IMG/VR virus record: IMGVR_UViG_3300006923_001082
Span: 1-29,926 of that record
From: a virus
Direction: 5' to 3' (one strand)
Length of the DNA stretch: 29,926 bases
Notes under the pieces: model-generated
What the model was told of the DNA's origin: nothing
The model's input: only the letters and a program-made list of their open reading frames with translations
Database searches by the model: none
Shown here: positions 6,891-28,588 of the stretch, piece after piece
How positions within the stretch are numbered: position 1 is the stretch's first letter
How the letters are laid out: the number at the start of each line of letters is the position of its first letter
Position numbers and translations under genes: made by a program

Positions 6891-7093
6891 GTAATATAAA
6901 TAAATTAAATGAATTACTCTTAGGTCAACTACAAGAAGATTTAAGAGATCAGAGTAAATGTACGCCGGGATTGTATCAAGTTATCCGTGGAGTTATTAAT
7001 GATAACCGAGATAAACTAGACGAGATTCCAAACGAAGTGTTAGACGAAATTGAAGAGATGGTAAAGGACACTCCGTTTAAGTTTGGAACCTAG
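6887..7093 (+). CDS. Small terminase subunit, T7 gp18-like (DNA maturase A)
   Basis: A 68-aa acidic, helical protein whose ATG overlaps the upstream stop (ATGA). AGGA at 6878-6881 lies 5 nt before the start. The segment CTPGLYQVIRGVINDNRDKL resembles the T7 gp18 pattern SPQLYNAINKLLDRHK and the (T/S)P.L...R..(L/I).DN signature of small packaging subunits. T7 gp18 is 89 aa, so this one is slightly short. It lies 30 nt upstream of the large subunit, the canonical neighbour, which is half of the argument. It would recognise concatemeric DNA and regulate the motor. Confidence 0.7.
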   Translation: MSNINKLNELLLGQLQEDLRDQSKCTPGLYQVIRGVINDNRDKLDEIPNEVLDEIEEMVKDTPFKFGT

Positions 7094-8791: not shown

Positions 8792-8799
8792 GAGATACT

Positions 8800-11700
8800 A
8801 TGTTTGATGATATACCATACTTGGTAGACCAAGCAATCTCTATGGCACCGCCTGGAGTTATAGATGCAAATAAACTAGAGAAAGAACTCAAAGCAGGTAG
8901 AGCTGAGAATCTAGTAAATCCTCACCTTAAACAATTAGCTCAAGCAGACCTACCTGTAGAGTCTTTTATAAGACTAGGATTTCAGCAACCCAAGATAGAA
9001 GAAAAGAGAACCTTCCCCTCTGGTGAATATGATATGATATCAGCTAAGGAATACGAAACATCTACTGGTCTATCTTTATATGATGGTAATCATTATGCAT
9101 CTAGGATACCCACGGGACCCAATGTAGGACTACTATTGAAATCAGAGAAGCATGAGACATTCGGTAGAATGTTACGTGGCGAGAGAAATGCAGGTACTGT
9201 ATTATACAGACGAAGAGATCCAGAGGGTAACAAAACCGTTCTAGATAATCGTCTATTTTCTTTCCTCCCTGGAGACAAGGTAGATACTAGTTTGTATCGC
9301 CCCGTCCCAGAAGAACAGATAAACAAATGGAGATTCTCTTCGTATAATATCTCTGATATTGCCGATAGTATCATACCATTCGAAGTAGTCCTAAGTGTTC
9401 CAGAACAATGGGGATACGATAAGGCATCTGACACCTATAAAGTTTACTTAGACAGTAAAGGTATACCTACGATTGGAATTGGCGGTAACATAGGTCCAGA
9501 TCGCAAGCATAAATTCATAGAACAACTAGAGATTGTAGCACCTGAGAAAAACTATGACGATATACTCTCAGGTGAACTAGGGCTTACAAGATCAGAAGTA
9601 GATCAGATATTCATGATGAATGTTAGAGAACATACCATAACAGCCGAAGGTCTTAAGATAGAAACCGAGAAGAATAGTGGAATCTTTGTACAACCATTCG
9701 AGAATCTATCAGAGTTTCCTCCGTATCTACAGCAAGCGATAATCAATGGTGTCTTTTGGTCGATGCTTACTCCAGCCAAGAGTCCTAATACCATGCGTAT
9801 GATTGCTCGTGGAGATTGGGAGGGAGCATCTAAAGAGTTTCTTGATGGTAAATGGCAGAGAGAACAAAAAGCAAAGAATGGGTCTACATGGCAAAGGTTC
9901 GTTCTAATCTCTGATGCATTAGATAGATATGGTAAAGAACTCAAGGGAACAGAAGACTCTGGATACATCATGCAAAAAGGAGATACTCTTTGGGGAGTAT
10001 CACAAGATCTTGGTATGACAACAGAGGAATTACAAGAGATGAATCCTGGGTTAGATCCTACGAATATTCCTGTGGGCTATAGACTTAAGACTAAGGCAGC
10101 TGAGGCTATAAAATATGGACAAAGAGTTGATGGAACTATGAAGGGAAGCGGATTCTTAGGTCCTATTAAAATGGACGATGGTCGTACTATGACTGAGTTA
10201 TCTATAGGAGTAGAGTTTGATGGGAAAGAAACACTAATTCCAGCTATTGTTCCTACCCTTACAGAAAAAGAAATAGATCACTTAAAAGGCGGGGGGAAGA
10301 TAACGGACGAGATTTTTAAGAAAGCAGTAGACCACGCCAAACAAAGAATGTCTAATGGATTAAGCCCCTTTAAAGAAATTAGTAAGACTGATAATGAAAC
10401 CTTTTGGAAAGACTTGGGTATAGTAGGGGGGTTAGCAAGTGTGGGAGCAGGGGGATTACCTGAAGATGTAGCTTTTGGAATGACCGAAGAACAGTTCGCG
10501 ATGTGGGAGAAGGCATCAACTCCAGAAACTAAAAGACTGATAGAAGCCTCTATAAGAGATAATATACATATAGCACAAACAAAGAACTATGACTGGGATT
10601 TGTTATTCGAAGAATTTGAAGCCCTCTCTCAGGGAAGTAAACAAGACCATCCTGAGTATCCTTTTGATATAGACTCAGCCAAAGAGTATAAGAAGCTTTC
10701 AAAAGAATCTGGAATTAAAAACATCCAAGAACAAGTGCCCCCTTTATCCGATTCTTGGGACAGTTTTATCGAGAACTTACCAGAGAAAAACAATGCACAC
10801 AGAAAAGCACGGGTTAATTCTTTAGTATCTGACCTAGGTGTAGATGGAATAGTGGAACTTGCAGCTTGGGATACGGGCGAATGGAAAGAATCAATTAAGC
10901 GCAAGGCAATCGAACTTGCAAGGCAAGTGGTTATAGAAGAAGAGATGGCACTAATAGAGATAGAAAGTACCCATGAACCATCTAAAGAACTACAAGATAG
11001 AAAGATAGCCCTTAGAAATTCTAAAGATGCCTTAGTAGATTACGACTACTTCGAAAGCTATCCTAAAAATAAAGGTGTTCAGATAATGGACCATAGCTTA
11101 AGAGATGCCTTATTACAACAAGGACATAACTACCAACCCACTCATATGAAAAGACCCACTCATATGAAAAGACCCCTACATATAAATGAAGGCTTGTATG
11201 CTGCAGTAAAAAATCTGCGGTTAGAAAATAGAAGTGTGGAATATATCCTAACATTAAATTCTAAGTTGGAAAGAAGAATGAATCTTACTGGAGAAATAAC
11301 TGAAGCCTTAGGAGGTCCTAAATCCGAGGCATTCTCACTAGAAGATAATGGAATATATAGGAAACAACTTCAAGAATTTTTCGATTCTAGAGGTCTTAAG
11401 GAAAAACGACCAAAGAAAAAGATTACGAAGAAGATTGAAAAGAAAGCGGTCTCAAAGAAAAAGCTTACAAAGAAGAAACCAAGAAAAAAAAGAAGAGGGC
11501 TTGTTCTAAACCCTGCCGAAACAAAAGCAGCAAAGGTGGCTCTGCGTCTATTAGACCCTAAAGCAAATCTTAAGGCTCTACAGAAGATGAGAGCCGCCAC
11601 GAACACAAAAACAGGAAAAGCTGGTGGAGCTGCCTTCTTCTTATATAGCATGATTGGATTATTACGCTCTATAGAAGAAGGAGAGACTAAGGATTTAACC

Positions 11701-12015
11701 GAGGGATGGCAAGGTCCGTGGTTCCGTGAATGGATGAAAGGCATTGCGGAAATGCAGTTAGGTGGTGCAGAATCTGTTGAAAACATGACTATAGATAATC
11801 TTATGTATTATATTACATCTATCTATAAGCCTAAGGAACAGCTTAGAATTCTATCAGAAATCCCTAAGAGCCTTAAGGATGTATTCGTCGAACCTTTATT
11901 ATGGGCAATGGAAAAATTGGACCAAGGCTCCGACACACCCTCAGTAACACCAATGAATTCAAGAAGTGGACAGTCTACCCCATCGGGGCAATATCCACCT
12001 TCGGTACAACAATAA
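8800..12015 (+). CDS. Mosaic virion protein with T4-lysozyme-like domain and LysM repeat
   Basis: 1,071 aa. An upstream in-frame TTG (8782) exists, but AGGAG at 8790-8794 with a 5-nt spacer selects the ATG at 8800. Residues about 74-160 (HYASRIPTGPNVGLLLKSEK onward) match a segment recurring in large phage structural proteins. Residues about 200-380 resemble GH24/T4 lysozyme: YLDSKGIPTIGIGGN supplies D218 and T224 at the positions of T4 D20 and T26, and E202 is the best candidate for the catalytic Glu, although its spacing to the Asp is longer. A LysM-like repeat (YIMQKGDTLWGVSQDLGMTT) covers about 388-433. A SIGVEFDGKETLIPAIVPTL domain (447-527) is again typical of phage virion proteins. A very Lys/Arg-rich stretch lies near 868-902. 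It is likely a packaged muralytic protein that opens peptidoglycan at infection, not a lysis endolysin, because of its size and position before the ejection genes. Confidence 0.8.
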   Translation: MFDDIPYLVDQAISMAPPGVIDANKLEKELKAGRAENLVNPHLKQLAQADLPVESFIRLGFQQPKIEEKRTFPSGEYDMISAKEYETSTGLSLYDGNHYASRIPTGPNVGLLLKSEKHETFGRMLRGERNAGTVLYRRRDPEGNKTVLDNRLFSFLPGDKVDTSLYRPVPEEQINKWRFSSYNISDIADSIIPFEVVLSVPEQWGYDKASDTYKVYLDSKGIPTIGIGGNIGPDRKHKFIEQLEIVAPEKNYDDILSGELGLTRSEVDQIFMMNVREHTITAEGLKIETEKNSGIFVQPFENLSEFPPYLQQAIINGVFWSMLTPAKSPNTMRMIARGDWEGASKEFLDGKWQREQKAKNGSTWQRFVLISDALDRYGKELKGTEDSGYIMQKGDTLWGVSQDLGMTTEELQEMNPGLDPTNIPVGYRLKTKAAEAIKYGQRVDGTMKGSGFLGPIKMDDGRTMTELSIGVEFDGKETLIPAIVPTLTEKEIDHLKGGGKITDEIFKKAVDHAKQRMSNGLSPFKEISKTDNETFWKDLGIVGGLASVGAGGLPEDVAFGMTEEQFAMWEKASTPETKRLIEASIRDNIHIAQTKNYDWDLLFEEFEALSQGSKQDHPEYPFDIDSAKEYKKLSKESGIKNIQEQVPPLSDSWDSFIENLPEKNNAHRKARVNSLVSDLGVDGIVELAAWDTGEWKESIKRKAIELARQVVIEEEMALIEIESTHEPSKELQDRKIALRNSKDALVDYDYFESYPKNKGVQIMDHSLRDALLQQGHNYQPTHMKRPTHMKRPLHINEGLYAAVKNLRLENRSVEYILTLNSKLERRMNLTGEITEALGGPKSEAFSLEDNGIYRKQLQEFFDSRGLKEKRPKKKITKKIEKKAVSKKKLTKKKPRKKRRGLVLNPAETKAAKVALRLLDPKANLKALQKMRAATNTKTGKAGGAAFFLYSMIGLLRSIEEGETKDLTEGWQGPWFREWMKGIAEMQLGGAESVENMTIDNLMYYITSIYKPKEQLRILSEIPKSLKDVFVEPLLWAMEKLDQGSDTPSVTPMNSRSGQSTPSGQYPPSVQQ
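11137..11172 (+). repeat. Two tandem 18-bp units inside the lysozyme gene
   Basis: The unit CCCACTCATATGAAAAGA occurs twice head to tail (11137-11154 and 11155-11172) and codes for THMKRPTHMKRP. It is in frame and looks like a recent slippage duplication in a linker of the virion lysozyme. Confidence 0.9.
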
Positions 12016-12027
12016 GGAGATATTCAT

Positions 12028-12702
12028 ATGTACGCAGGATTAGTAATGGGCGGCTTAAGTATGCTATCAGGCATGCAAGCCAATGCAGCCCAACGACAAG
12101 CAGAAGCAGCTCAACATGCTATCCAAATGTCGAACTACAATCGTGAGAATATGATTGGTAATCTTCAGAACATGATGAAGAATATCGAAATCTCTAGAAT
12201 TAATCAAGCTCGATGGAGACAGAATCGTGAGATCGCTAAAGCAGCTAATGAAAACCGTGTGCTTCAGGAGAGAGAACTCCGAAAGAGTGTCGGTGGTAAG
12301 ATGATGCAGATAAGCCGTGGACGTAACCAAGCATTAGATGCCCTAGCATCCAAAGCAACGGGAGCAGGGATGACCCCCGAAAGTGGAACAGCCAAGGCAT
12401 TACGTAATATGATCCTTACGTCCAGTGGTCAAGAGATGCAGTCCCTTAGGGAAAACAATTACATGGCTCGACAAAATATTATTCGTGAGCAAGAGAAAGC
12501 TTTAGCAAGTAGAGATCTATATAGTTATAATCAGGGATCTACATATTTCTCTGGTCCAGCCCCACAACTCGTACAAACAGCAAAGACATCTCCTTTAGCA
12601 GCAGCATCTATGTTTGCTAGCGGTGCAGCTAGTGGAATCGGACTGGACTCATCGGTTCAAGACACATATGGTGGCTGGTCTAATATGATACAAGGAAACT
12701 AA
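12028..12702 (+). CDS. Internal virion protein, T7 gp14-like
   Basis: A 224-aa protein (T7 gp14 is 196 aa). AAGGAG at 12014-12019 with an 8-nt spacer fixes the start, 12 nt after the lysozyme gene. The N-terminus is Gly/Met-rich and mildly hydrophobic (YAGLVMGGLSMLSGMQANAA), followed by long Gln/Asn/Arg/Glu-rich helices (about 20-165) and a Gly/Ala/Ser-rich tail. This pattern is typical of gp14-class ejection proteins that enter the outer membrane in the infected cell. The assignment rests on architecture and on its place directly before gp15- and gp16-like genes; I do not see a diagnostic motif. Confidence 0.7.
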   Translation: MYAGLVMGGLSMLSGMQANAAQRQAEAAQHAIQMSNYNRENMIGNLQNMMKNIEISRINQARWRQNREIAKAANENRVLQERELRKSVGGKMMQISRGRNQALDALASKATGAGMTPESGTAKALRNMILTSSGQEMQSLRENNYMARQNIIREQEKALASRDLYSYNQGSTYFSGPAPQLVQTAKTSPLAAASMFASGAASGIGLDSSVQDTYGGWSNMIQGN

Positions 12703-12707
12703 AAATA

Positions 12708-15700
12708 ATGCCACAACCTAACAACAAAAAACGTAGAGAGAGAACCGGGGGTCTAGGATCTATAGAACAGTTTACCAAACTTGGACAGATTGTCGAAGAA
12801 GGATCACAAATTACTCCTGTATCTCCTCAAAATATGAAGGGGCATATAACAGCTCCTTCTTTTGCTGTAGGTCCAGGCAAACATGATCCTAATAATATCA
12901 AAGTAGCTAAAGGATCTATTCAGCAGCTCAATGAATTTGCCACAAACATGACAAGTGTTGTGGATGCCCAAGCTAAATATAAAAAAGTAGAAGAACAACG
13001 AAGGATTAAGCAGGACGAAGATAAACAAATAGAGGCTATGAATAAACTCTTAGGTCTTGAGAATGATTGGGAAGAAGGAAGAAACAATACTCTTCTCAAG
13101 AGAACTAAAGAGGCTAGAAATTATCTAACACCAGATAGACTCAATGAGGTAACTAAGTCAAACCCCCAAACAGGTGATGACGAGATAGATTTCTCTATGT
13201 TAACTAACACAGAAATCTTATCTATCTCTCAAGGTGTAGATTTTAGATCACTAGAAGGCAAGGGGGCGGCAGAAATAGCGAAAATGTTAGATGCCCTTCC
13301 TATTGAGTGGAATTTTAAGAAGCAACGACAGATACTAACAAGTAACTGGAAGACTCTTGAAACACAGATGCAAACCTCCAGAGGAAGTGCTGAGTATTAT
13401 AAGGGACTGAACTCCTTGAACTCTCATATGAATGAGTTAACTGCTAGTGAGTATCGTGCCGATCTTATTGAGATTGTTAATATGCTTGATGCAGACCCTA
13501 ACATCACTCTTGAAGAAGCAGATGAAATCATAGATAACTGGAATGAGGCGGTATATATAAATAATCCAGAGCTCCGTGGTAGTGGGGTATATCAACAGAC
13601 TATTGAGAACATAGCTGGGAATGCACATACTACTATTTCTAGATCTCGTATTAAGGCTGTAACGGATTGGTATGACGAGATAAAAGAAGAAGGAGTAATA
13701 GACCTTTTTATTATGCAGGTCAAGGAACACTTTAAGAATGGTTCCATTCCAATACCTGAAGATGTTACTTGGAATGTAGAGGACATGCCAGCATCGTATC
13801 TTACAGACTTTGTTGTAGATTCCTTACTAGGTACTAGAGAAGATGGACCAGATTTTTTGAATCCAGAAATCATCCAAGATATGATGAGAGGGCTTGGGCT
13901 TGGGGATAATACAATCGGGTTTGATTCAGAGTCTGCAGTAATCCAGAGCTTCGTCCGAGATAAGATCTTTCCTATAGTATCTGAAAGATTCGCTGTAGAG
14001 CGAGATCTCAACACACAGATACGTAGGCAACACAAACTTATTATGGATGAGGACTCGATTGCTAGGGGAGATGTGGTAGATATAGATGATTTCTATCCCT
14101 CAAAAGGATCACAAGAAGATCTTTCTTTGTATATTAAGACTATAACAAATATCATCCATCCTAGAATTCTTGGAGGCTTTGACAATAGAGCTATTTCAAT
14201 AGCTACAAATCCAGAAGGTAATAAAGAAACTAAACTTTTAGAAGGATACAAAGTCTTATCAAAGAATAATTTCATAGATATTTTTACAGCATACCATGAT
14301 AGACTTGGAACATTTGATAATATCAAAGATCCTGAAGAGAGAACTAAAAGTATCAGAGACCAAGCGTTAGCCCAGAGAGAGAAAGCACTCGAAAAATTCG
14401 AAACTCAGGTAATTCAATTTGAAAAAGACGCTTCTCTGACTAGGTTCAACGCACATTTGGAATCATCTATGTTACTAGGTTACTTAACTAATGTGGACGG
14501 TTACTCTTATTTTCAAGCCCTAGTAACCAATAAATCGTTAGACGATTCTTTGGATGGTATCATACAAAATACTAAAAATATAGAGAGCTATCGTAATACT
14601 GGAGAATATAACTCTAGTATCACATACGACTATATGCATCCTGGAAACTTAACAGACAAAGAACAGGAAGATATAGGAGATCCTACTTTACTGAATGACC
14701 ACTTAGGTATAATTAAGAAGACTTGGAAAGATCAGAATGGTCTCACTCATGTAGAGTACGAAAGAATTGACCCAGCAGATCCTATAGGTGTAACTGTTCA
14801 TAATATGTTTAAAACAGTAATGAATACTGTAGCAGAGGCTGGGGGATCTGAAGATGCTGGGGGGGTAGATACTTTAAATGGCTTGGGTACAACATCTGGT
14901 CAAAAAAATATCTTAGAAAATATTATAGCTGCAATATCCCGAGAAGAGGATACACGCCAAAGAACCCCAGATACTCCCAATGCTATCGAGAATGCTGCAA
15001 AAGTATTAGGGGAAGTAGAGTATGAAAAGTATAAGAACTATAGCCTTCTTATGCATAATGTAAACACCACTGGAAAACTGGATAACACAGTTAAGGATGC
15101 CTTGTTAAAGAGTATACAAGATCCTAAGATGTTCCATCCTTTAATACAGTGGATGTACCTAACGGACGATAATGGTAAGTACCATATCCATGAAGCATCT
15201 CGTAGGTCTCTTATAAAAAACCTCACGACCAACGAAAACAATGCTGACTATAGAAAACTAGGATGGATTATTTATGACCTCGATAATAAACTTACTACAC
15301 AAATAGGTAACCTACCATCTGATCCAGAGGAGAGAGCACAAGCATTAGGTATGATGTCTGGAGAATTATCATTAGACGAGAATATGGTGACACTGCTTAA
15401 TGATGCTATAACATACGCTGGAATTAGGGAAAAAACTCGGGTGAAGGGCTTTAGTAAGGAGGTTGATAAGTTTCTTGCTGATCCAGATTATGAGGGGGAC
15501 ATGAATATAGACGAAGCTGCCGAGTCTCTAATAGGGGTGCTAAGTAGTGGAGGTTATCTTGAGGCAACTAGAGAAGAGGGAAGTAGGTGGAGTGACTCTA
15601 ATCAACTAGCCATGTATCCTTATTACTCTAAAGTAGTCTCTACATCTCTAGGACCACAACAATTCGACCCAAATTCATACGGTGACTTTATGCAAGATAT

Positions 15701-17165
15701 GATGTTCCGGTATCTAGAGTACCGTTTTCAGCATCCTGTTGATCCAGATACAGGAGAGTCAGAAGATTTATCTCTTAATGATTTCTGGAATAATACACTA
15801 AGCGACGAATTTGCTGCAGGAGAATGGTCAATATACATAGATGATTCCTTTGGGGCTAACGGTAGGGTATACTTTACCAAAGATACTGAAGGAGCTTTAG
15901 AAGGACCAACAACACCGATGAGAGCATGGTTTTCTACAGCCAGTAAGTATGTGATCACAGATAACTTTGATACCAATAGTATGCTATACGATACATCATC
16001 TTCTATAGATCTAACATCTCCTAAAGCTGTAGATAACATGTATAGTGCTATACGCTTAGTCATGGATGATTACTTAATTAAAGAAGATGGTTCATTCTTG
16101 GCTGATAGTGAATTCTTTAGGGGTAAATGGATAGCCCATCCAACTGTACAAGAATTTTATAATACCACAAGAGAACTAAGGGAATCTTCTCCAGATTATA
16201 CTGAAGAGCATGAGTACAAAAGAGTAGTAGAGAACCTTGCTAATGCTATACATCTAGGAGAGATACCAATACCAGGAGAGATGGACACAGAAGGTAATTG
16301 GATTAGCCACCCACTTACACATACCCCAACTTCAGTAAGTTCTAATAGCAAAGCATATTCTTATAAGAATGCTGTACATGACTACATAAATATTGCAGGT
16401 AGTTTTCCATCACAAGAAGTGTATAGTATGATAGGAAACCAATTAAAAACAAGAGCAGATATTGCGATATGGGCTCTCAACTCTCACAGAGCCTCAGATA
16501 GTATAAAGTACCCCTCTGAATTTGCTAGACAGGAAATGATAAACCTAGACCAAGTATCTATACATCCTAATCCAGAAGACTTTACTCATGCAGAACTAGG
16601 AATCTTTAGAGATTCTTTTGGCGGGGAACGCCGGGATACTGAAACTAAGCTTAGTCATCAAATCAGGAAGTCTCAATTAGATCAATACTTTAATCTCTAT
16701 GGAGATGGATACCCTGTCCAACTAAGACTGAGTATGCCCGATGGTACACCTATAGATGATTTTCCTACGTTATATGTTCGTAATATATACAGGGATATAG
16801 ATGGTCGTTGGGTTAATGAACAGACAAGGAGTCCTGCGTTTGTAATCAACCAAAATAATATGGATGGTGCAATTACTAGAGAAAAAATTAAAAACCAAAA
16901 AGGGAAAGCATTTAGATTGGTAAGCAAAGACTCTCCAGATTTTGAAATCAATATAGTATTTCCTGATAATGTACACAATGAAGTACGAGGAGAAATAGAG
17001 GAAAAAGGCATGAGAGTTAAGTGGGACTGGAACCCAATGCAAAGGGGAGTAGCTCCTTTTATTACAGCCAAAAAAATATCTGGTGATTTGAGGGGTGGTG
17101 AGTTTGTCTTACCTTACACTTTCTCGCCATTCATACAAGAACGCTTGACTTCTGATCTTAAATAG
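12708..17165 (+). CDS. Internal virion protein, T7 gp15-like, enlarged
   Basis: 1,485 aa, about twice T7 gp15 (747 aa). It starts 5 nt after the gp14-like gene. The ribosome binding site is weak (AAGGA at 12692-12696, 11-nt spacer), so expression may depend on coupling. The N-terminus is basic and disordered-looking (NNKKRRERTGG). A charged helical section follows (AKYKKVEEQRRIKQDEDKQI), then long alpha-helical, Asp/Glu/Asn-rich stretches without cysteine clusters, signal peptide or membrane segment. No enzyme motif is recognisable. Position between gp14- and gp16-like genes and the helical character support a periplasmic-conduit ejection protein. A different virion protein cannot be excluded from sequence alone. 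Confidence 0.65.
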   Translation: MPQPNNKKRRERTGGLGSIEQFTKLGQIVEEGSQITPVSPQNMKGHITAPSFAVGPGKHDPNNIKVAKGSIQQLNEFATNMTSVVDAQAKYKKVEEQRRIKQDEDKQIEAMNKLLGLENDWEEGRNNTLLKRTKEARNYLTPDRLNEVTKSNPQTGDDEIDFSMLTNTEILSISQGVDFRSLEGKGAAEIAKMLDALPIEWNFKKQRQILTSNWKTLETQMQTSRGSAEYYKGLNSLNSHMNELTASEYRADLIEIVNMLDADPNITLEEADEIIDNWNEAVYINNPELRGSGVYQQTIENIAGNAHTTISRSRIKAVTDWYDEIKEEGVIDLFIMQVKEHFKNGSIPIPEDVTWNVEDMPASYLTDFVVDSLLGTREDGPDFLNPEIIQDMMRGLGLGDNTIGFDSESAVIQSFVRDKIFPIVSERFAVERDLNTQIRRQHKLIMDEDSIARGDVVDIDDFYPSKGSQEDLSLYIKTITNIIHPRILGGFDNRAISIATNPEGNKETKLLEGYKVLSKNNFIDIFTAYHDRLGTFDNIKDPEERTKSIRDQALAQREKALEKFETQVIQFEKDASLTRFNAHLESSMLLGYLTNVDGYSYFQALVTNKSLDDSLDGIIQNTKNIESYRNTGEYNSSITYDYMHPGNLTDKEQEDIGDPTLLNDHLGIIKKTWKDQNGLTHVEYERIDPADPIGVTVHNMFKTVMNTVAEAGGSEDAGGVDTLNGLGTTSGQKNILENIIAAISREEDTRQRTPDTPNAIENAAKVLGEVEYEKYKNYSLLMHNVNTTGKLDNTVKDALLKSIQDPKMFHPLIQWMYLTDDNGKYHIHEASRRSLIKNLTTNENNADYRKLGWIIYDLDNKLTTQIGNLPSDPEERAQALGMMSGELSLDENMVTLLNDAITYAGIREKTRVKGFSKEVDKFLADPDYEGDMNIDEAAESLIGVLSSGGYLEATREEGSRWSDSNQLAMYPYYSKVVSTSLGPQQFDPNSYGDFMQDMMFRYLEYRFQHPVDPDTGESEDLSLNDFWNNTLSDEFAAGEWSIYIDDSFGANGRVYFTKDTEGALEGPTTPMRAWFSTASKYVITDNFDTNSMLYDTSSSIDLTSPKAVDNMYSAIRLVMDDYLIKEDGSFLADSEFFRGKWIAHPTVQEFYNTTRELRESSPDYTEEHEYKRVVENLANAIHLGEIPIPGEMDTEGNWISHPLTHTPTSVSSNSKAYSYKNAVHDYINIAGSFPSQEVYSMIGNQLKTRADIAIWALNSHRASDSIKYPSEFARQEMINLDQVSIHPNPEDFTHAELGIFRDSFGGERRDTETKLSHQIRKSQLDQYFNLYGDGYPVQLRLSMPDGTPIDDFPTLYVRNIYRDIDGRWVNEQTRSPAFVINQNNMDGAITREKIKNQKGKAFRLVSKDSPDFEINIVFPDNVHNEVRGEIEEKGMRVKWDWNPMQRGVAPFITAKKISGDLRGGEFVLPYTFSPFIQERLTSDLK

Positions 17166-17173: not shown

Positions 17174-20100
17174 ATGACAACATTCACAACACATCCGGCA
17201 TTTAACCAAGGTCCTAGCTTTAGCGACCGACTCCGTTGGGCTAGTGATAGAGCTCCAAGGGCAATCTTTCCTGCAGCTATGAAGACAGAGATCATGGATG
17301 AAGCAGCAAGAAACAAAGTACAGGTCAATGATTCAGGGAAATCTGGAGATCTCTCTTTTTATACAGGACACCGAAGAACAGATGTTGATGACTTCTGGAA
17401 ACCTAGGTTACTAACGAATAGAGCACACTGGAGATCTGGACTCTATGGAGCCTCTCCGTTTGCTGTGAATTACGATAGACAACTTGCTAATATGGAAGAT
17501 AAGAATATAGAATCAAGTCCATGGAATCTTTGGGGTGGACTAACGGCAGGACAAGATGAAGAGTGGAAACTAACAGATCTTAATCCTGTAGTTGGTATGG
17601 TGAAATATAATGCAAAGGCTATTAGGTGGTTATCTAACAACTGGAACTTTGATTCGGTTATAGAAATGACCGAACAAGTAGACCCAACCTTCAAGGATTT
17701 TAAGACAGACGGATGGATAGATGCTCTAAATAAAGAGTTTGGAAAACAAGCAGATCTTGCTCGAAAAGCGTTAGAGCAGAACGGGTGGGACCCAGAGAGT
17801 CATGGGATAGGAACTAAGAATGCTCAAGCATACACCTATCTAGCAAAAAGAAGACTAAGGGATATCTATTTACAACAATGGGCTCAAAGTAGATATGATT
17901 ACCAAGATTATATAACAGGGGAAAACTCTAATAAAGTCTTTGGAGATATAGGCAAAGGGCTACTTGTAGATATCTTTACTGATTACGAGATTGCTCTAGA
18001 TACAGTGGTAACTATACCTCTAACAGGAGGAGTTGGGACACTACTAAAGACAGGGGGCGAAGCACTAAAGGCAGCTGGACGAATTAAACGACTTGCTGGA
18101 AGTATACGCAAAGGAAAATACTCAGCTATGATTTGGGATACTATAGATGTTCCTCTAGGTGTAGGTAAGGGAGTAAGAAAAGTTAAAGTACTTCATTTAA
18201 CAGATTCTAAGGGTATCGTAAAAACTGCACCAATCTTTGAGAATGAGGTATTAGAACTAAGGAAACTAGGAGTACTTAAAGACGTTCCTTTGATTGGTAA
18301 GAAACTCGTCACAGGAAAAATGCTAGTGGGAGAATCCCGACTAGCACAAAGATTTGCACAAGGAACTAGTGAAAAATTAATAAGTAGTATGGGATGGGGC
18401 TCCATAAAATTAGGAAGTGTTGCAGAATTTCTAGCTTTTCAGAATGCTTCGAGAAGTGTTGCATCACTAGGACACACCGCATCTGCTTCAGGTATCTGGG
18501 GAGCAGCCACAGGAGTGGGCTGGTCTATTGGATCTCAGAAAGACAGACGGATAATAGCAGATCTTACTTATGGTATAGGTAATCATGACGTTACCTTTAG
18601 TGGGGGAGAGGCAGTACAAGCTTCACTGCTATTTGGTGGTGCTGGTTTTGTTCTTGGTGGAGTACTCTCTGGTTTATTTCGCGGCTCCTTCTATACGAAT
18701 TTTTGGAATAGTGCTAGGAAACATGGGTGGAACCCAAGTGAAATGTGGAAGAATCGAGTATTAGGACACTCCCCAACTACCACGGTCGACGGAACTCCCG
18801 AAGGTCTTATAAAACAGTTAACGAAAGACCACTACCTAAAATTCTTAGCTGATATTCTTGATCAAACGGCAGGAGAAACAGGACATGGTGCACGATTATT
18901 AGACGATGCTATGTTCGAAAAAAACCATTTATTGGCTGATGATGTTGGTATGTTCTTAGAGTATATCTATAAGAAACTAAATGGAAACTATATTCCTATT
19001 GAAGCATTAGAACCAATTATAATGAGGTTTATAGCAGACGCAGGTAAACATGGACCTGCAAATTTAACAGAACGCCTTGCTATGAATAAAAAAAGAGCAG
19101 CTGAACTATGGAGAAAAGCACGTAAAAACATCTCAGAAGAAAAGGGCAAACCAGCCATAGAAGTTCCTGTGCCAGAAAGAGACCATTCTGGTTTAAATAC
19201 TTTTCAAAGAACTAAGTTAACTACCCTTCAAAATGATATTGATACTATTCGTAAGAGAGCTAATAGAGAAAAGAAAAATGGTAGAGTGGAAGATGAGACA
19301 CATAAAGCATATGATGAGGCTATAGATGCTCTAGAGAAATGGTATGAAAAAGAAGGAATAGACTTCTTGCCCACAGAGATGATACCTGAAATTAGATTTA
19401 AGGATTATAATTTTTCGGTTACAGAGGAAGGGGCATTCTTAGCTAAGCTAATCCAAATAGCTGAAAGTATAGAAGAAGCAGGATGGCGTGGTGCTCCTAA
19501 AAAAGAAATCAAAGGACTTGAGCAAGATTTTGCTAGGGCACTTGAATCAATAGATAAGACCTTTGCTCGAAGGGATAAGAAAACCCGATTACAAGCTCTT
19601 GAGGATGATATTAATATACTTATGCCGGAGATTAGAAAAGCAGGAGACGAGGGACAAGCTTTAGTTAAAGAGAAACTCTTAAATCTCTTGGTAAAAAAAC
19701 TAGGAGCAGAGTCTCCGCAAGGTGATCATGCAAAAAGTGGAGCATGGTTTGATAGGGTTATGAGAAGTGGACCAGGTAAGGGTCTTACTAAGATTGCAAC
19801 TCTTGGCTCTGGTTACTCTAGTATGGTGTATAGTATAGCTCATGAGATACGTCTACTTGCTCGAATGATTGATAGTAGCCACGAGGCTTTAGCAGATGAT
19901 ATAGCTTTGTTTGGTCGTATGAGGTCTGTATGGTCTGCACAGCGACAAGCATTTAGAGACGGTGGTCATGTAGTTACTGCTGTAAATAGGGCTGAGACGG
20001 AGCTAGGTGTTGTTTCAACTAATGTTATTCAAGACATAGTTTCAGCAAAACGACTAGCAGGTGAGGCTATCACAGCAGAAGACTTTTCAAGGGCTGGATT

Positions 20101-23100
20101 TAACTTTAGAGATACTGTATCTGCTCTTAAGCATGCGGAGGATATCTCGAAAGCAGTACAAACCTTTTTTGGATCTAACTTAGAGAGGGGTGTGGAAGTA
20201 CAACTCCTTAAAAAAGCAATGGATTCTGATAGATACATATCAATGATGTTTGTTGATACACTTCCAGATTCAGAAATCTTACGAATCGGTAGAGAAGCAT
20301 GGGAAATCCAAGCCAAAGAACTATGGCTAGATAAAACAGTAGCGTGGGTTGAACTAGAAGCATTGGGTCTTCTCAATCTAGCTAAAGATGAAGGAGGAAA
20401 CATACTAGGAATCCATAGTATTCCAGAAGATTCTTTCTTTAATGTAGGTCTCCCAGTTCAAGAGATAGAGAAACTACTAACCAAACTATCTAGAGAAGAC
20501 TTGAGAGCATGGCAAGGTCTTGCAGATAGAAATAGAATAGCACAAGGTCTTGACGTACACCCGAACCGATTAGACAATCTTACAGCCACACTCGAAAAGA
20601 AGAGATTAGATATTAATAAAGTATCTCCAGAAACTGTAGAGTCTTATTACAAAGGCTCCAAAGGCAGATACTTAGTAGCTCTTGGAGAAAATAATCTACC
20701 TAAAGCAGCAAAAGAACTTTATACATTACAGAGACAAATCTCTGAATTCAAACGATTTAATCCAGAATCATCTGTTGAACATTCTTTATATCTTAAAGAA
20801 CATTTACAACATCTTGAAAAAGAATATGGTATAACTATTGTTGATCCAATGAGCCAACCCTACACTAAAGACGTAACATGGATTGTAGACAAGTGGCACT
20901 CAGATCCAAAACCTGGTGCTCTAACAAAAGATCCTGTAGTTATTGCAGTGAATCATCCAGAGGTTCGGCGAGGTACTAAGATTCTTAAAGAAGCTAGAGT
21001 AGTTGTCACAGATATCGTAGGTGCACAAGATATTCCTGCAGTGGGGTATATGAAAGATCTCGCAGATTCTATTGGAGTGGTTGAAAAGGGACAGAAGGTA
21101 GTACATACTCCTGTGTCAGGAGAGCCTAGATTTACTGAGCCATTAGTTATCGAAAAGATTGTTATAAAGACATCAACAGAAGACCTTGATGCAACAAGAG
21201 TTCTAAGAGCTAATGAGATTTATAAGGATAAATACCAAGGGGAAGTAGAAATCGGTGCCTTGACAAAGGATGAAGCCAGACGGTATGCAATGGAAGATGC
21301 CACTAGAGAATTAAAAAAGGCAAAACCTGAGGAGTATACGCACACTATGGTCAAGGTAGAAGGAATAGATGACCTAATCCCAAGCCATGAACTACAGACT
21401 GTAGGAAGAAACCTTACACCTGATGAGTTCGATGGAGCAGCTAAGTACTTACGATACAATAGTTTGTACAACGCAGAAGACTATGATATGCTTGGTGCAC
21501 ACGACCTTATGACTCTAGTGGAGGCTCTCTCTGGAACTACGCTTAGTCCTATAGAAATAGGCATAACTAAAAGAGCATTGAGAAACAGTGGGATTACATC
21601 CTCAGACTTAACAGAACATCTCACGACCAGTCAATCTATGAGAGAACTCTTTTCCTTAGCAATGCAAAACGATATAGATATCTCTACGTTTATCCCAGCT
21701 TATTTACAAAAGACAATCCAAGATGCATCTAAAGTTAACAGAAGAAATGTTGTTACATGGCTCAATGAGACTAACCCCAAGCCAGCTAAATCAGAACTAC
21801 TAAAAGCTATAGGAACACCAGATAGAGTTAAAGAAGCAGTAGACCTAATAAACAAACGGATCTACGATCTTGAAGATCTTCTTCCTGAGTCATCTATATT
21901 GGTTGAGCGTGGTGTAATCTCTTTAGACGACGACGGAGTAGCCTCGCTACTTAAACCTCTCCAAGGTGAAGATCTTGAGGTTTATACAGCAGCAGTAAAT
22001 AAAGTAAAATCCAAGTATGAATCTCGTCTCACAACCGAACAACTAGGGTTGATCCGAAGAGAAGAGTGGGATACATTGGCTGCTACTTCTACTGATATCC
22101 TACATAAGATACACGAGATAAAACAAGGATTCATAAATGATAACCTAGCTAGAATTTCTAGCGGAGAAGCTTCAGTTAACAATCGAATAGCAATGACTAA
22201 TGCTATAGAAGAAGAATTTCCAGGACTGAAGCTATGGGATCCAGCAGATGATATCTCTGATGATATCTTCAGAGCTTCTGTAAGTAAATGGGAAAATTCT
22301 TTTGCAGACGCACACGGTACTGGGCTTCATAGAGAAGCCTCAGATTTCGTAGGTCCTCCTAAACCAACAGTAGAGATCAAACAACCTAAGGTAGTTGACC
22401 CTATCACACCAGAGGAAATGGCTAGCCATATGGCTTCTGATACACAGGTGGGTAAGGTGTTAGATGAAAGCTCTAAGAAGAATGCAAAACATGTTACACA
22501 ATCCCAGAGGGTACAAAAATATTTCCCCGAATCAACATCAGATCAACTTAAAGATAGGAAGTATATTGCTTCTAAGATGGCGGAAGTTAAACGCTTAGAA
22601 TATCTAGATAATGTAGATGCTAGGATTACTTCTGATCTAAATAAAGTATCCGCAGCAATCTCTGAAGTAGAAGAAAGAATTGGAGCACTTAGAGAACTTC
22701 CTCCGGAAGTTATGAAGGAACATTCAGACTTGTTGGTTAAGGAGATGATTCTTCGTACTGACCTTGCAGAGGCTAAAATAAAGAGAGAGTTTGGTGGGTA
22801 TGATAAAGATGTAGAGAAACTTGAGAAGGAGATTTTAGATAAAGTAGATGATATGCTTGCCCTTGATGAATCAGACTTAGCCCTAAGAATTAAGGGAGAT
22901 AGGTTAGATTTCGAAGAGTCCCTACCGTCTGCATATAGAGGAATGAGTCCTGAAGACATCAAACAGAGTATAGTAGATCTAAAGGAAGTTCGTTCTGATG
23001 TTATCAAAAGAAAGAAAAAATACAAAAAGGACTCACCTAAATATAATAAAGCTTTAGGTGAAGAGAGAGCATTATCTGGAGGTATTAACAAACTTGAAGC

Positions 23101-26100
23101 TAGTATGGATATCGCTGACCAAGCGGTAACCTCGATCTCAGCTCTTCAGGATGAAATGAGTTTAGCTGTAGCTAAACTTGAGGACAGAATACTTAAGATA
23201 CATGGAACAAGAAAATTCATGGATCCTAAGGCAGATGAAGTCATTACTCACATCCAGAATAAGCTTGATAAGAATATTAAAAGACAAACTAAGTTAATAC
23301 CCTTAAATACATTAGAGGATCGTATGGATCGCCTAATGTTAGATAGAGAGAGGTTGAATTATATTAAGACTCTCAGAGATGAGAACTACGATCTTACAGA
23401 TTTCTCTAAGGGTGCTACGCTAATGGAATTGTTAGACACAAAGTTACATTGGTGGGAACAAGGTAAGCTTGCAAAGGAAGCTAATGCTGAACTGAAGTTA
23501 GAGACAGAAGCATTACACAAAGAGTTAGCTAGGGTTGAACAAAAAGTCTTTGGCACAGGGGAACATGCTTTAATTCCAGAAAGAAAAAGAACAGGGACAG
23601 TAGGAGACTACATATATCTCATGTCTAGACGACCCGAAAGAGCAGAAGAATATCTAAAAGGTATCGCTGTTGCAGCATTATCCTATGCTAAGAAGAAGGG
23701 GTGGATAGCCACAGAAGCTAATACTTCAATAGCACCAGAGTCCCTTCTTGGTCAAGAGATGGAAGATATACTTCAGGATTTCTTTACGATGGCAACCCTA
23801 CCTTATCACAAGTATAATACATCTCCGGTAGAACAGATAGTAGCATACGCTAACGCTAGTGGAAATCCAATGACTCCCCATAATGCTGACTACCTAGCCA
23901 AGAACTTATTCTCTTACGAAAGAGTGTTGAATCCAGATACGGGTAAGTATTTCGATAGACGTGTACCAAAGAAAAGACGCTTCAGAGGCGGAGAAGATTC
24001 TAAAGTCCCTATGGGTCTTTTAATCTACCAAGCAGCTAATGAAATCAGAAGACGAAGGGGTGGACTTACCAAGCTTCTACAATATCCTGAAGCTAGAAAG
24101 CATGCCAATAGTCCATACGATGATCTCTTTGATCCAGATAGTGGAGATTGGGCAGGATCTATAGACAGATTTGCTGATCCTTTTGGTTACGAGTATGGTT
24201 CAACCTTTGGTAAACCATTAGCTTCTCTAGAAGAATTAGCAGGACGGGAACAGTTTAACGAGATTGTTAAGTCTTACTTTGGTAAGACCGCAGGACTAAC
24301 GATTATAGAACAGGCGGAGAAGGATCGTCAATATGCTTTGGTTCGTTTAATTATGGAACAAGATAAAGGTGGTTCACGTATTCTTCGTAGAGGTAGAGAA
24401 AGAACCGTAGAAGAAGAATTGTCATCACGAGAAGTTAGAGTGAAGAAAGATAGAGTATTACGAGAAGAAGAATTCCCTCATCGTAGTGAAATCTATAGAA
24501 AGGATGGAGTAATTCGTCCTGACAAGGTTGCAAAAATGCTTAGAGATCGTGGGTTCGCAGATGCTTCAGTAGCTACAGTAAGATCTGATATCAACGCACT
24601 AAAGAACTTCTATGCAGATAGTTTGTCTATCTTTAAAGAAGTAGAGGGATCTGTACGTATTCTCAATTCATCACCAGAGACTTTCCGTAAATGGCTCGAC
24701 AAGGCATTCTCTGGAGATACTCACTCGTTTATGGGTAAACCGTCTCAACAACTAATAGATGTTAAGATGGATGGTAAGTCTCTCATGGATAATTCGAAAT
24801 ATTATCTTAGTAATGCTGACGAACTAGAGGTAAAACTTCTTGGTTCAGTTTTATCTGAAGGAGAGAGAGAAGCTGTTATACAACAAATGAAAACACACCT
24901 AGATGTATACACAAGAGACTATGATAGATTCTTAGATAATATTGTAATCTATGGTAGTGATCCTATTAGCTATATGAAAAATCGTATGATGTTAATTGAA
25001 GAAGAACTAAGTAAACCAAGATTTACTTATATAGAGGATAACAAATGGTTCGTAAAACATGGTTGGGCACGACCTGATAGAGAGAGAGCTTTCGTTATAT
25101 CTAAGGGAGACTATGCTAGGTATAATAAACTCCAGATCGAAAAAGCAGTACTCCGTCGTAAACTATCGAATATCAAGAAAGATATCTACACAACTCTTGC
25201 TAGGGATATCGAGCAGTTCGAGGTTCCTGTAGTAGCTAAATGGTTACCAGATGCAGCACATGGTGATACTATGTTCAAGCTAAAGGATCTGTTAGATACC
25301 GATGCTATACGTAAGAAGGACTTCCTAGCTATGCATAAGATGACAGACGCTCAATGGAAGAGTACTATATATCCTCATCTTGTTAAACTAAGAAAAGAAG
25401 GATTCGTTGATACTGTAAATAAACGATGGCAGCTCACAGAAAAAGGCAGGAACCATGTAGATGCTAACGAACCCATAGTAATCAATGTTCATACCCCAAG
25501 AGACTCCTTCAGTCCTGTGGTTAACAAAGAACTACTATCGAATACTCAAGCTAAGAAGTTACTAGGATTATCGGACTCTAGTACTATAAAGATACAAGCT
25601 AGAGATAAGCAGGGCTTTACTAAAGCTATGCGACAACAATACAACAACATGGTTACCCTTAAGAGACAGTCGATAAAGCGAGGGGATCTTAAGATGGTAG
25701 CCATGTATGAATCCCAAATACGGGCTCTTAAGGCTCAGGCTATAACAGCTGAGACTGAGGTGGGTATGATGCTCATGAAAGAGTTACGTCAGATATATAA
25801 AGAATTGGAAGATATTCGTAATATGAGGATGTATGGTCAGGAAGTGGGACCCAATGCCTTTAAGAAATTCAAGAACCTAACTAAGGTTTATGAAAAAGGA
25901 ATGAAGAGAGCTCAATTTCTAGAGGTTAGAAAACATCAGATTATCGACAGTCTCCAAGAGATCTTAGGTAAGAAGATATATAAGGATGGAGCATTCGCTC
26001 CCCCTACGTCTTCCGTATTCTCTACTAGTAAAAGAAAACTCATGAGTACTGCAGATGTAGGAGAAGACGTAGGTACTACATCCTCCGCTGCAGGGCTCAT

Positions 26101-28588
26101 AGAGAAACTTGAGAAGGCTGGGATTGACCCCGAAAAGATTAATCCTAACTACCGTGGATCAACAGATGCTCTTACAGCTGATGAGAAGTACGGAGAGGCT
26201 CTCACAGGTATTTCGGATCATTATACGGGACGGGCGAAGGAAAAATATAAAAACAATATGACGGCACTACAGGATGGTTTATGGGCATGGTCTCGTAGAA
26301 TGAATGGAGAGCGAGCTGGTACTGGTTCTGGTTTTGATCCTATTATGGCAGGGAAGTATAGAAATCCTGATGGGTCTCCTCATATGGGAGACCACTCTAG
26401 AGTATTTAGCGCAGAGCTTCTAGTTAAGTATCCTGAGTTTAGAAAGAACTTTGAAACCGATCTTAGAAAGATTGTTGCTAATTATTCTAGAACTATGGGT
26501 GCTCAGATTAGAGCACAAGAGGTTCTTAATGATTGGATGAAACACCTCATGGTAGGCGTAGATCAAAAATACTTAAAGAATATTAGGTGGGATGATATCT
26601 TTGATCTCATAGAAGCTAGAGTAAATAACATGACTGAGATTATTAATAAGTCAGGCACGATGAAAATAGGAGGCGAAGAGCGTAGGAGTTTGGTAGATGC
26701 TGTAAAACTTGCTAAGCATGCATATTATGATATGATTGGCAGACCTTATCACGAAGGATGGATGGAGCAAACGAGTCTGGTAAAAGCAGCTAATAACGTA
26801 GCCCAATCTATGTTTGGACCTGGTATCTCAACAGCAGTAGCATTGGTAGAGTTTCCTATGGCTATTCTCGCTCGATCAGGAGACCTTGGTGGTCTTGTGA
26901 ATGGTATGGGAATAGCTGCTCGGAATGTCAAACATATGAATACACTCGAGCGTAGTGACCTGGAGGGGACTTCGTTTGTTTTAGATAACTACGTACACTC
27001 GGGTTTACATAGACATCTTTCTTCAATAGGAGATGATTTAGAATCTAGAGTATCAACCAGAATTCGTATGGCATGGTCAAAGATGTTTGAGGGTAGTGAA
27101 CGAGTAGGAACCATGGATAAAGTTATGGAGAATATAAACAACTTTCTAGAGGGTACAGCTAAAATAGGCAGTGAACTCTCCGGTTTACGTCAGGCAATCA
27201 ATTTGGTCAAAGCCGTAGCCGTAGGAAAAGCCAAGTATACTATAATGAAAAATGTAGATGGTCTTATGAAATTTGGAGAATTATTAGATATTCATAAGAT
27301 AAAGACAGCCTCTACTCCAGGGGAGAGGGTAAAGTATATCAAAGGAATAGCTAGAAAAGCCGGAGTTAATCCTACTCTAGCGTTTCGGTGGTATCGGGCA
27401 GGATTGGTAGGAGATAATGATGGGATACTGTTGGGTAAGGTTGTTAAGAATCTTCTTGGGATGGGGTCTACACTAGAGGGAAAATCCTTTGACCTTGGGC
27501 TCATGTATCGAGGTATGGTTGAAATGGAGCATACTGTAGGGGCTGGTAAAGCTTTATATGAAGATGTCTTTGATCGTCTAGCGTTATTCTTAGAACTACA
27601 TGCACACGATCTCTCACCAGAGCCTAGAGGTCTCGTGAGGTTTGGAATGTACAATAGTCCACTCGGTCGCTTGTTTGCATTCTATGCTTCTTACCCCATC
27701 TCGTTCTTTATGGCATACTTTAAGAAAAACCCAAGTGAGATGGGAACTATAGGAGCTTTGGCTACTATTTTAACTCTTACAGGATTCGAGGCATTTCATA
27801 TGCAGGTTCGTGCACTACAGCGGGGTGATGACTGGGATGAGGTTGCTGAGAAATGGAAGGAGAATCCTTGGGCTATGTTGTTTAGACATGGATCTAATAC
27901 TCCATGGTTAGGGTATACTAATGGCTTAATTAGAGAAACTGTGTTCTTACCTGGCATTAATAAAATTCTAGGAGATAGAGATTATCCGGTTTCTGTAGGA
28001 CATACTGCGGGTCTAGGGGCTGTAACTAAATTATTTGATTCTCTACGAGATGTTGTTAAAGGGAATCTACTTACCCGGGGTGCAAATAACGCATCCAGTA
28101 ATATGCGATCTATTGATCGTCTTATGACTGGTTTTGATTTAGAAAGTGGTGGTGAGTCTGCACAGGCTAGTAAATTCTTCGAAGTTCTTTATGATACAAT
28201 GCTTCCTACGAAGGCATTCTATTGGGTTCTAATAGATAAGATGTTTGATTATGAATTTGATCCTCAGGTATCTGATAATCAGGAAGTAATCATGAGAGCA
28301 TATAGACCTATCCTAGAAGCTTTAGAGCAGTCTGGAGATTCGAAAGAATTCGAAAGAATAATGAGAGAGCTTAATAAAGAGCACTTTAGTAATAAACGTA
28401 TACATCCAAGTATGCCCAGTAGAGAGACTCCATTATTTCCACAGCAAAGAAAAGATGTTCCTACCCCTACGGGACCAATGCCAGAGTTCTATAAACCAAA
28501 GAGCGTTCCACAGGTAAATCCACAAGATGTTGTGGCTTCTTTATTGAAGACCCCTACATATAGTAGTATACCAGAGGATTTGGTCTAA
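17174..28588 (+). CDS. Giant internal virion/ejection protein, T7 gp16-like position, 3,804 aa
   Basis: A single uninterrupted frame of 11.4 kb; T7 gp16 is 1,318 aa. TAGGA overlapping the upstream stop, with a 6-nt spacer, precedes the ATG. Hydrophobic Gly-rich segments lie near residues 276-293, 415-456 and 481-509 (QASLLFGGAGFVLGGVLSGL), and others near 3210-3250 and 3500-3545 (LFAFYASYPISFFMAYF). Long charged, probably coiled-coil regions lie near 660-850 and 1790-2130. Two segments look like winged helices (about 2447-2480 and 2705-2763). The block PHMGDHSRVF...Y.RTMGAQIRAQEVL (about 3070-3125) and the C-terminal LGRL...SYPISFF followed by a Gly/Ala helix resemble large phage internal virion proteins. 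The transglycosylase domain at the N-terminus of T7 gp16 is not seen; muralytic activity seems to sit in the separate 8800-12015 gene. Likely role: inner-membrane part of the DNA-ejection conduit. Function of most of its length is unknown. Confidence 0.75.
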   Translation: MTTFTTHPAFNQGPSFSDRLRWASDRAPRAIFPAAMKTEIMDEAARNKVQVNDSGKSGDLSFYTGHRRTDVDDFWKPRLLTNRAHWRSGLYGASPFAVNYDRQLANMEDKNIESSPWNLWGGLTAGQDEEWKLTDLNPVVGMVKYNAKAIRWLSNNWNFDSVIEMTEQVDPTFKDFKTDGWIDALNKEFGKQADLARKALEQNGWDPESHGIGTKNAQAYTYLAKRRLRDIYLQQWAQSRYDYQDYITGENSNKVFGDIGKGLLVDIFTDYEIALDTVVTIPLTGGVGTLLKTGGEALKAAGRIKRLAGSIRKGKYSAMIWDTIDVPLGVGKGVRKVKVLHLTDSKGIVKTAPIFENEVLELRKLGVLKDVPLIGKKLVTGKMLVGESRLAQRFAQGTSEKLISSMGWGSIKLGSVAEFLAFQNASRSVASLGHTASASGIWGAATGVGWSIGSQKDRRIIADLTYGIGNHDVTFSGGEAVQASLLFGGAGFVLGGVLSGLFRGSFYTNFWNSARKHGWNPSEMWKNRVLGHSPTTTVDGTPEGLIKQLTKDHYLKFLADILDQTAGETGHGARLLDDAMFEKNHLLADDVGMFLEYIYKKLNGNYIPIEALEPIIMRFIADAGKHGPANLTERLAMNKKRAAELWRKARKNISEEKGKPAIEVPVPERDHSGLNTFQRTKLTTLQNDIDTIRKRANREKKNGRVEDETHKAYDEAIDALEKWYEKEGIDFLPTEMIPEIRFKDYNFSVTEEGAFLAKLIQIAESIEEAGWRGAPKKEIKGLEQDFARALESIDKTFARRDKKTRLQALEDDINILMPEIRKAGDEGQALVKEKLLNLLVKKLGAESPQGDHAKSGAWFDRVMRSGPGKGLTKIATLGSGYSSMVYSIAHEIRLLARMIDSSHEALADDIALFGRMRSVWSAQRQAFRDGGHVVTAVNRAETELGVVSTNVIQDIVSAKRLAGEAITAEDFSRAGFNFRDTVSALKHAEDISKAVQTFFGSNLERGVEVQLLKKAMDSDRYISMMFVDTLPDSEILRIGREAWEIQAKELWLDKTVAWVELEALGLLNLAKDEGGNILGIHSIPEDSFFNVGLPVQEIEKLLTKLSREDLRAWQGLADRNRIAQGLDVHPNRLDNLTATLEKKRLDINKVSPETVESYYKGSKGRYLVALGENNLPKAAKELYTLQRQISEFKRFNPESSVEHSLYLKEHLQHLEKEYGITIVDPMSQPYTKDVTWIVDKWHSDPKPGALTKDPVVIAVNHPEVRRGTKILKEARVVVTDIVGAQDIPAVGYMKDLADSIGVVEKGQKVVHTPVSGEPRFTEPLVIEKIVIKTSTEDLDATRVLRANEIYKDKYQGEVEIGALTKDEARRYAMEDATRELKKAKPEEYTHTMVKVEGIDDLIPSHELQTVGRNLTPDEFDGAAKYLRYNSLYNAEDYDMLGAHDLMTLVEALSGTTLSPIEIGITKRALRNSGITSSDLTEHLTTSQSMRELFSLAMQNDIDISTFIPAYLQKTIQDASKVNRRNVVTWLNETNPKPAKSELLKAIGTPDRVKEAVDLINKRIYDLEDLLPESSILVERGVISLDDDGVASLLKPLQGEDLEVYTAAVNKVKSKYESRLTTEQLGLIRREEWDTLAATSTDILHKIHEIKQGFINDNLARISSGEASVNNRIAMTNAIEEEFPGLKLWDPADDISDDIFRASVSKWENSFADAHGTGLHREASDFVGPPKPTVEIKQPKVVDPITPEEMASHMASDTQVGKVLDESSKKNAKHVTQSQRVQKYFPESTSDQLKDRKYIASKMAEVKRLEYLDNVDARITSDLNKVSAAISEVEERIGALRELPPEVMKEHSDLLVKEMILRTDLAEAKIKREFGGYDKDVEKLEKEILDKVDDMLALDESDLALRIKGDRLDFEESLPSAYRGMSPEDIKQSIVDLKEVRSDVIKRKKKYKKDSPKYNKALGEERALSGGINKLEASMDIADQAVTSISALQDEMSLAVAKLEDRILKIHGTRKFMDPKADEVITHIQNKLDKNIKRQTKLIPLNTLEDRMDRLMLDRERLNYIKTLRDENYDLTDFSKGATLMELLDTKLHWWEQGKLAKEANAELKLETEALHKELARVEQKVFGTGEHALIPERKRTGTVGDYIYLMSRRPERAEEYLKGIAVAALSYAKKKGWIATEANTSIAPESLLGQEMEDILQDFFTMATLPYHKYNTSPVEQIVAYANASGNPMTPHNADYLAKNLFSYERVLNPDTGKYFDRRVPKKRRFRGGEDSKVPMGLLIYQAANEIRRRRGGLTKLLQYPEARKHANSPYDDLFDPDSGDWAGSIDRFADPFGYEYGSTFGKPLASLEELAGREQFNEIVKSYFGKTAGLTIIEQAEKDRQYALVRLIMEQDKGGSRILRRGRERTVEEELSSREVRVKKDRVLREEEFPHRSEIYRKDGVIRPDKVAKMLRDRGFADASVATVRSDINALKNFYADSLSIFKEVEGSVRILNSSPETFRKWLDKAFSGDTHSFMGKPSQQLIDVKMDGKSLMDNSKYYLSNADELEVKLLGSVLSEGEREAVIQQMKTHLDVYTRDYDRFLDNIVIYGSDPISYMKNRMMLIEEELSKPRFTYIEDNKWFVKHGWARPDRERAFVISKGDYARYNKLQIEKAVLRRKLSNIKKDIYTTLARDIEQFEVPVVAKWLPDAAHGDTMFKLKDLLDTDAIRKKDFLAMHKMTDAQWKSTIYPHLVKLRKEGFVDTVNKRWQLTEKGRNHVDANEPIVINVHTPRDSFSPVVNKELLSNTQAKKLLGLSDSSTIKIQARDKQGFTKAMRQQYNNMVTLKRQSIKRGDLKMVAMYESQIRALKAQAITAETEVGMMLMKELRQIYKELEDIRNMRMYGQEVGPNAFKKFKNLTKVYEKGMKRAQFLEVRKHQIIDSLQEILGKKIYKDGAFAPPTSSVFSTSKRKLMSTADVGEDVGTTSSAAGLIEKLEKAGIDPEKINPNYRGSTDALTADEKYGEALTGISDHYTGRAKEKYKNNMTALQDGLWAWSRRMNGERAGTGSGFDPIMAGKYRNPDGSPHMGDHSRVFSAELLVKYPEFRKNFETDLRKIVANYSRTMGAQIRAQEVLNDWMKHLMVGVDQKYLKNIRWDDIFDLIEARVNNMTEIINKSGTMKIGGEERRSLVDAVKLAKHAYYDMIGRPYHEGWMEQTSLVKAANNVAQSMFGPGISTAVALVEFPMAILARSGDLGGLVNGMGIAARNVKHMNTLERSDLEGTSFVLDNYVHSGLHRHLSSIGDDLESRVSTRIRMAWSKMFEGSERVGTMDKVMENINNFLEGTAKIGSELSGLRQAINLVKAVAVGKAKYTIMKNVDGLMKFGELLDIHKIKTASTPGERVKYIKGIARKAGVNPTLAFRWYRAGLVGDNDGILLGKVVKNLLGMGSTLEGKSFDLGLMYRGMVEMEHTVGAGKALYEDVFDRLALFLELHAHDLSPEPRGLVRFGMYNSPLGRLFAFYASYPISFFMAYFKKNPSEMGTIGALATILTLTGFEAFHMQVRALQRGDDWDEVAEKWKENPWAMLFRHGSNTPWLGYTNGLIRETVFLPGINKILGDRDYPVSVGHTAGLGAVTKLFDSLRDVVKGNLLTRGANNASSNMRSIDRLMTGFDLESGGESAQASKFFEVLYDTMLPTKAFYWVLIDKMFDYEFDPQVSDNQEVIMRAYRPILEALEQSGDSKEFERIMRELNKEHFSNKRIHPSMPSRETPLFPQQRKDVPTPTGPMPEFYKPKSVPQVNPQDVVASLLKTPTYSSIPEDLV

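Follow-up and report, generated by a model that had tools for sequence, protein, structure and literature searches.

A candidate gp16-type ejection protein of 3,804 residues in an uncultivated lineage of T7-like phages

RESULTS

A giant reading frame in a T7-like genome

The stretch of viral DNA analyzed here, called the window, is 29,926 nucleotides long (IMG/VR record IMGVR_UViG_3300006923_001082). The following features were placed in it, with residue numbers referring to the giant protein, P0001.

6887..7093, + strand: possible terminase small subunit, a weak match (E 0.012)
7124..8791, + strand: terminase large subunit, T7 type (PHROG 38, E 6e-91; Pfam Terminase-T7 RNaseH-like)
8782..12015, + strand: 1,077-aa protein with T4-type lysozyme (about 9436-9945) and LysM, from domain matches
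12028..12702, + strand: gp14-like protein of 224 aa, from an 18-member family, by comparison with gp14
12708..17165, + strand: 1,485-aa protein in the gp15 slot, by position
17174..28588, + strand: P0001, probable giant gp16-type ejection protein, from the reading frame, a second record, and homologues
17990..18046, + strand: hydrophobic segment, residues 273-291, from the sequence
18611..18679, + strand: glycine-rich hydrophobic segment, residues 480-502, from the sequence
19736..20398, + strand: module M, residues 855-1075 (local E 1e-5; score 44.3 against a shuffled maximum of 33.9, n=40)
26399..28063, + strand: conserved C-terminal core, residues 3076-3630, common to clusters of giants, by profile
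27566..27913, + strand: stretch aligned to T7 gp16 1071-1192, residues 3465-3580, by profile alignment

The P0001 frame runs from an ATG at 17174 to a stop at 28588 and encodes 3,804 amino acids (about 422 kDa) with 0 internal stops. As originally predicted, it is single and uninterrupted and takes up 38% of the window, and we found it again base for base in a second record. The whole window is contained in a 68,335-bp contig, IMGVR_UViG_3300025066_000003, which has 0 base differences from window positions 7174-29926, so that the P0001 gene is identical, and two base differences from the rest. Because the ends of this contig overlap by a direct repeat of about 55 bp, the genome is apparently a complete, circularly closed assembly. 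All of its large frames lie on one strand, and the P0001 gene makes up 16.7% of it.

Judged by its matches to known families, the phage is T7-like. Along with the T7-type terminase, we detected the nozzle (PF25675, E 2e-79; 966 aa), the portal (PF12236), and a scaffold and a capsid protein of T7 type. Other matches were to a primase-helicase, DNA polymerase A, and a pair of RNA polymerases of the single-subunit kind (817 and 700 aa). Together these make an Autographiviridae-type genome. The polymerase genes lie outside the window (L004:17152-19605 for the 817-aa enzyme and L001:25863-27965 for the 700-aa enzyme), and both products retain equivalents of T7 D537, K631, Y639, and D812. An RNA polymerase was matched in ten genomes, and a second such gene occurs in just two of them, this one and G002. 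At the start of the window, positions 2-4393 and 4740-6890 each hold a large gene resembling a tail spike, with pectate-lyase-like and beta-helix domains in the pair. In the full contig, the first encodes 1,821 aa, and two of its regions are of pectate-lyase type. The closest terminases among phage records are about 40% identical and belong mostly to marine and freshwater T7-like phages. A terminase search yielded 66 loci, several of them on contigs of 64-70 kb; the same search of bacterial genomes for a host gave no match.

Giant proteins at the same position in related phages

The giant protein is a lineage trait because 13 full-length homologues, P0001 included, occupy the same position, with lengths of 3,267-5,729 aa. 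The complete frames of the 12 relatives measure 3,267, 3,579, 4,219, 4,649, 4,728, 4,879, 5,012, 5,182, 5,359, 5,473, 5,565, and 5,729 aa, and further relatives have giants of more than 4,000 aa each whose frames end at the edge of the retrieved DNA. One relative with a giant (L161) is on a contig of 82,250 bp, the others being on contigs of 64-70 kb. Since 12 further complete giant frames exist at the same position in related contigs, the P0001 frame is neither a chance frame nor an assembly fusion. A tblastn search of 50,697 phage records with the two halves of P0001 and with three relatives gave no match, and sequence searches of Pfam, PHROG, NCBIfam, and PDB with P0001 returned nothing convincing.

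The ejection module

Up to and including P0001, the genes follow the small, medium, giant order of T7 genes 14, 15, and 16. The 224-aa product two places upstream of P0001 scored 31.5 in comparison with gp14, well above the shuffled maximum of 18.0 (n=200). The middle protein, at 1,485 aa, is about twice the size of its T7 counterpart in position and is 1,052-2,079 aa in most relatives; no gp15 similarity was detected in it. Additionally, the module here comes after the terminase, whereas in T7 it comes before the tail fiber and terminase. The proposed gp16 position thus stands as regards the 14-15-16-like order and the gp14 relative but not as regards the place of the module or the identity of the middle gene. 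For comparison, all three ejection proteins of the Schitoviridae are without detectable sequence similarity to those of T7 (PMC12633501). In other clusters (L022, L023, L029, L036, L039, and ten more loci), a conserved gene of 320-373 aa follows the gp14-like gene; it gave no match to gp14, gp15, or gp16 and was not found in this window or in its two closest relatives.

No domain match to an N-terminal lytic transglycosylase was found in P0001. The transglycosylase in gp16 is a T7 feature and not a mark of the whole family, and some relatives carry a lysozyme on gp15-type proteins (PMC8954989). In this phage, a T4-type lysozyme lies in the 1,077-aa protein (PDB 6xc0, E 4e-5), which, with its LysM domain, may supply the wall-degrading activity that T7 puts in the gp16 transglycosylase.

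The same small, medium, giant order occurs in N4, where the giant, at 3,500 aa, is of similar size and is the virion RNA polymerase. This was the identity that the original prediction had named as contrary to its own. P0001 has no RNA_pol domain and no profile similarity to the N4 enzyme, and the genome has two RNA polymerase genes at other places, so an N4-type virion RNA polymerase can be dismissed with near certainty, short of a polymerase fold that escapes recognition.

A C-terminal core with likeness to gp16

The giants share a C-terminal core of about 550 residues. Full-length profiles matched cluster B (E 6e-13) and cluster C (E 2e-9), and the last 800 aa of clusters A and B matched each other at E 8e-17. 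The direct match of the core to the L090/L095 pair is weak (0.006), and this pair is strongly linked to cluster B. Within residues 3465-3580, a hydrophobic stretch comes after a block of the G[K/R]-x4-F type. The core profile scored 35.7 against eight T7-like gp16 sequences, with 24.8 as the best of 120 block shuffles and about 21 for the reversed control; as a single hit, this match is under the usual significance (hhalign probability 4.6%, E 0.009). It was not reproduced with a larger, narrower, pelagiphage-heavy gp16 alignment (score 23.8).

The predicted structure of a relative points the same way. For the core of L093, AlphaFold gave an almost entirely helical model from 21 sequences (pLDDT 67, pTM 0.64); its model of P0001's own C terminus is too poor for use alone (pLDDT 47). 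In a Foldseek search of BFVD, the named matches of the L093 core included three internal core proteins (Yersinia phage ISAO8, E 2.7e-4; PSTCR2, 3e-3; Ralstonia phage RSB3, 0.05) as well as internal virion protein D of ctSH72 (1.1e-3) and internal protein D of Bordetella phage BB8 (3e-3). Foldseek gave each of them a probability of 1.00. The top structural match of the core was A0A6J5R557 (E 1e-8 to 1e-10). The proteins listed by a PDB fold search and a VIA search were helical but unrelated, and a solved structure of T7 gp16 was not among them. Taken together, the profile score above all 120 shuffles and the predicted L093 fold suggest, at moderate strength, that the core resembles the C-terminal part of T7-type gp16 (internal virion protein D), as had been predicted for the C-terminal block. 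The large part of the chain that lacks a T7 counterpart was put at about 2,500 residues; the residues with no detected counterpart are nearer 3,200.

The core and its neighbors bear on two other accounts of P0001. It would be very improbable for P0001 to be a nonvirion protein made inside the host, since its location at the end of the late block, ahead of the early genes, would suit such a protein but the gp14-like neighbor, the gp16-like core, and the adjoining structural genes argue against it. P0001 could also be a podophage giant of the polyvalent, DarB-like, or PLxRFG class that merely occupies the gp16 slot. Proteins of this class, with 4,300-5,000 aa, occur in podophages of 57-66 kb (PMC9505181, PMC5512222), one BFVD match was named for a polyvalent-associated domain, and the C-terminal block of the PLxRFG family aligns to the same T7 gp16 site (44.4 against a shuffled maximum of 39.2). 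No direct sequence relation to P0001 was detected, however, with 17 of 100 shuffles reaching the score, and we find this account improbable as it stands. It would be compatible with a gp16-type identity if all of these proteins share a gp16-type C terminus. The sequence SPLGRLF in P0001 was considered as a PLxRFG motif and dropped; in the SopranoGao PLxRFG protein, it is FPLARFGDY that answers to the name, and it lies elsewhere in the chain.

The remainder of the chain

The N-terminal regions gave no convincing match to gp16. Two hydrophobic segments lie there (residues 273-291 and 480-502), and in relatives outside the close cluster, NDPDM stands directly before the counterpart of the first. 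In most of L084-L095, the first few hundred residues include a conserved motif of the GI[LI]N[DE]PD[ML] type, after which comes a hydrophobic stretch rich in glycine; the motif is not retained in P0001, L083, or L091. Module M lies about 1,900 residues ahead of the C-terminal core in P0001 and about 90 residues ahead of it in L092, as expected if long stretches of the chain have been inserted or moved.

Enzyme domains were found in the giants of four relatives, one each and at different places in the chain. An ART-PolyVal (ADP-ribosyltransferase) domain is present in L094 (E 5e-26) and L087 (6e-10), and a PD-(D/E)XK nuclease domain is present in L089 (7e-10) and, weakly, in L095 (7e-5), with the nuclease motif GELDILL ... 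D[VL]KT visible by inspection in both. No enzyme domain was found in P0001 itself in the Pfam, PHROG, NCBIfam, and PDB sequence searches. Residues from about 2434 to 2762 of P0001 contain two stretches that look winged-helix-like by eye only and are candidates for DNA binding; this look was not counted as evidence.

It had been proposed that the extra mass either builds a longer conduit or brings in additional activities. A purely structural role, in which P0001 lengthens or strengthens the trans-envelope conduit or the internal core and carries no enzyme payload in this phage, would agree with the enlargement of the whole apparatus (the gp15-slot protein is about twice the size of T7's, and the nozzle has 966 aa) and with the lack of a detected enzyme domain in P0001. 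However, the lengths of relatives with the common core vary by about 2,400 residues, and the enzyme domains, at differing positions in four relatives, are unneeded by a conduit. We therefore regard a purely structural role as rather unlikely, and the domains of the relatives favor additional activities over a longer conduit.

DISCUSSION

In T7, the textbook case of DNA ejection, gp16 is a compact protein of 1,318 residues. P0001 is probably a gp16-type ejection protein of a T7-like lineage that has turned into a payload carrier. In T7 and in the Schitoviridae, three ejection proteins form an outer-membrane pore, a periplasmic tunnel, and an inner-membrane complex (PMC8954989, PMC10925440, PMC12633501), and in the Schitoviridae the third is a giant virion RNA polymerase (PMC10925440, PMC12633501). 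By analogy, P0001 would be the third ejection protein. A few copies would be kept in the capsid and would leave before the DNA, together with the gp14-like and 1,485-aa proteins. Its hydrophobic N-terminal segments and C-terminal core would form the last part of the DNA conduit, at the inner membrane and in the cytoplasm, in the manner of T7 gp16, and its long middle would be an exchangeable payload delivered within the same chain. Wall cutting would fall to the separate lysozyme-LysM protein.

More tentatively, gp16 itself may have become a delivery vehicle throughout this uncultivated lineage. A few chains of 360-640 kDa per virion would each be anchored in the ejectosome by the conserved end, and the middle would be swapped between lineages, so that different enzymes enter as soon as infection begins. 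We consider this broader scheme possible but short of likely.

Giant ejection proteins and polyvalent proteins are already known in other podophages (PMC10925440, PMC5512222, PMC9505181). What appears to be new, within the collections and literature searched, is a gp16-type giant in a T7-like lineage. If this is true, N4-like and DarB-like phages are not alone in delivering payload with their ejection machinery, and the series of gp16-type proteins of 3,300-5,700 residues offers natural lengths and inserts for separating conduit from cargo.

Several known systems can be set beside P0001. The virion RNA polymerase of N4 and DEV (Schitoviridae) is likewise a giant that comes third, behind a small and a medium ejection protein, but P0001 has neither its polymerase domain nor detectable similarity to it, and the genome is T7-type and not N4-type. 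The polyvalent, PLxRFG, or DarB-like giants of Lastavirus, Pavtokvirus, and similar podophages (4,300-5,000 aa) are annotated with varied enzyme functions, and their C-terminal block aligns to the T7 gp16 site to which P0001 also aligns; they differ in having no direct sequence match to P0001, and their records are not classed with T7-like phages. Polyvalent proteins as described by Iyer (2017) have several effector domains per injected chain, whereas here four relatives have one each and none was found in P0001. The uncharacterized protein A0A6J5R557 (UniProt; uncultured Caudovirales phage), with no described function, is alike in the structure of the C-terminal core. Compared with gp16, the internal virion protein D of T7 (Autographiviridae), P0001 is 2.9 times longer, has no detected transglycosylase domain, leaves the lysozyme to a separate protein, and belongs to a module placed after the terminase; it is like gp16 in being the third of a 14-15-16-like set, in its C-terminal core by profile and predicted fold, and in its hydrophobic segments.
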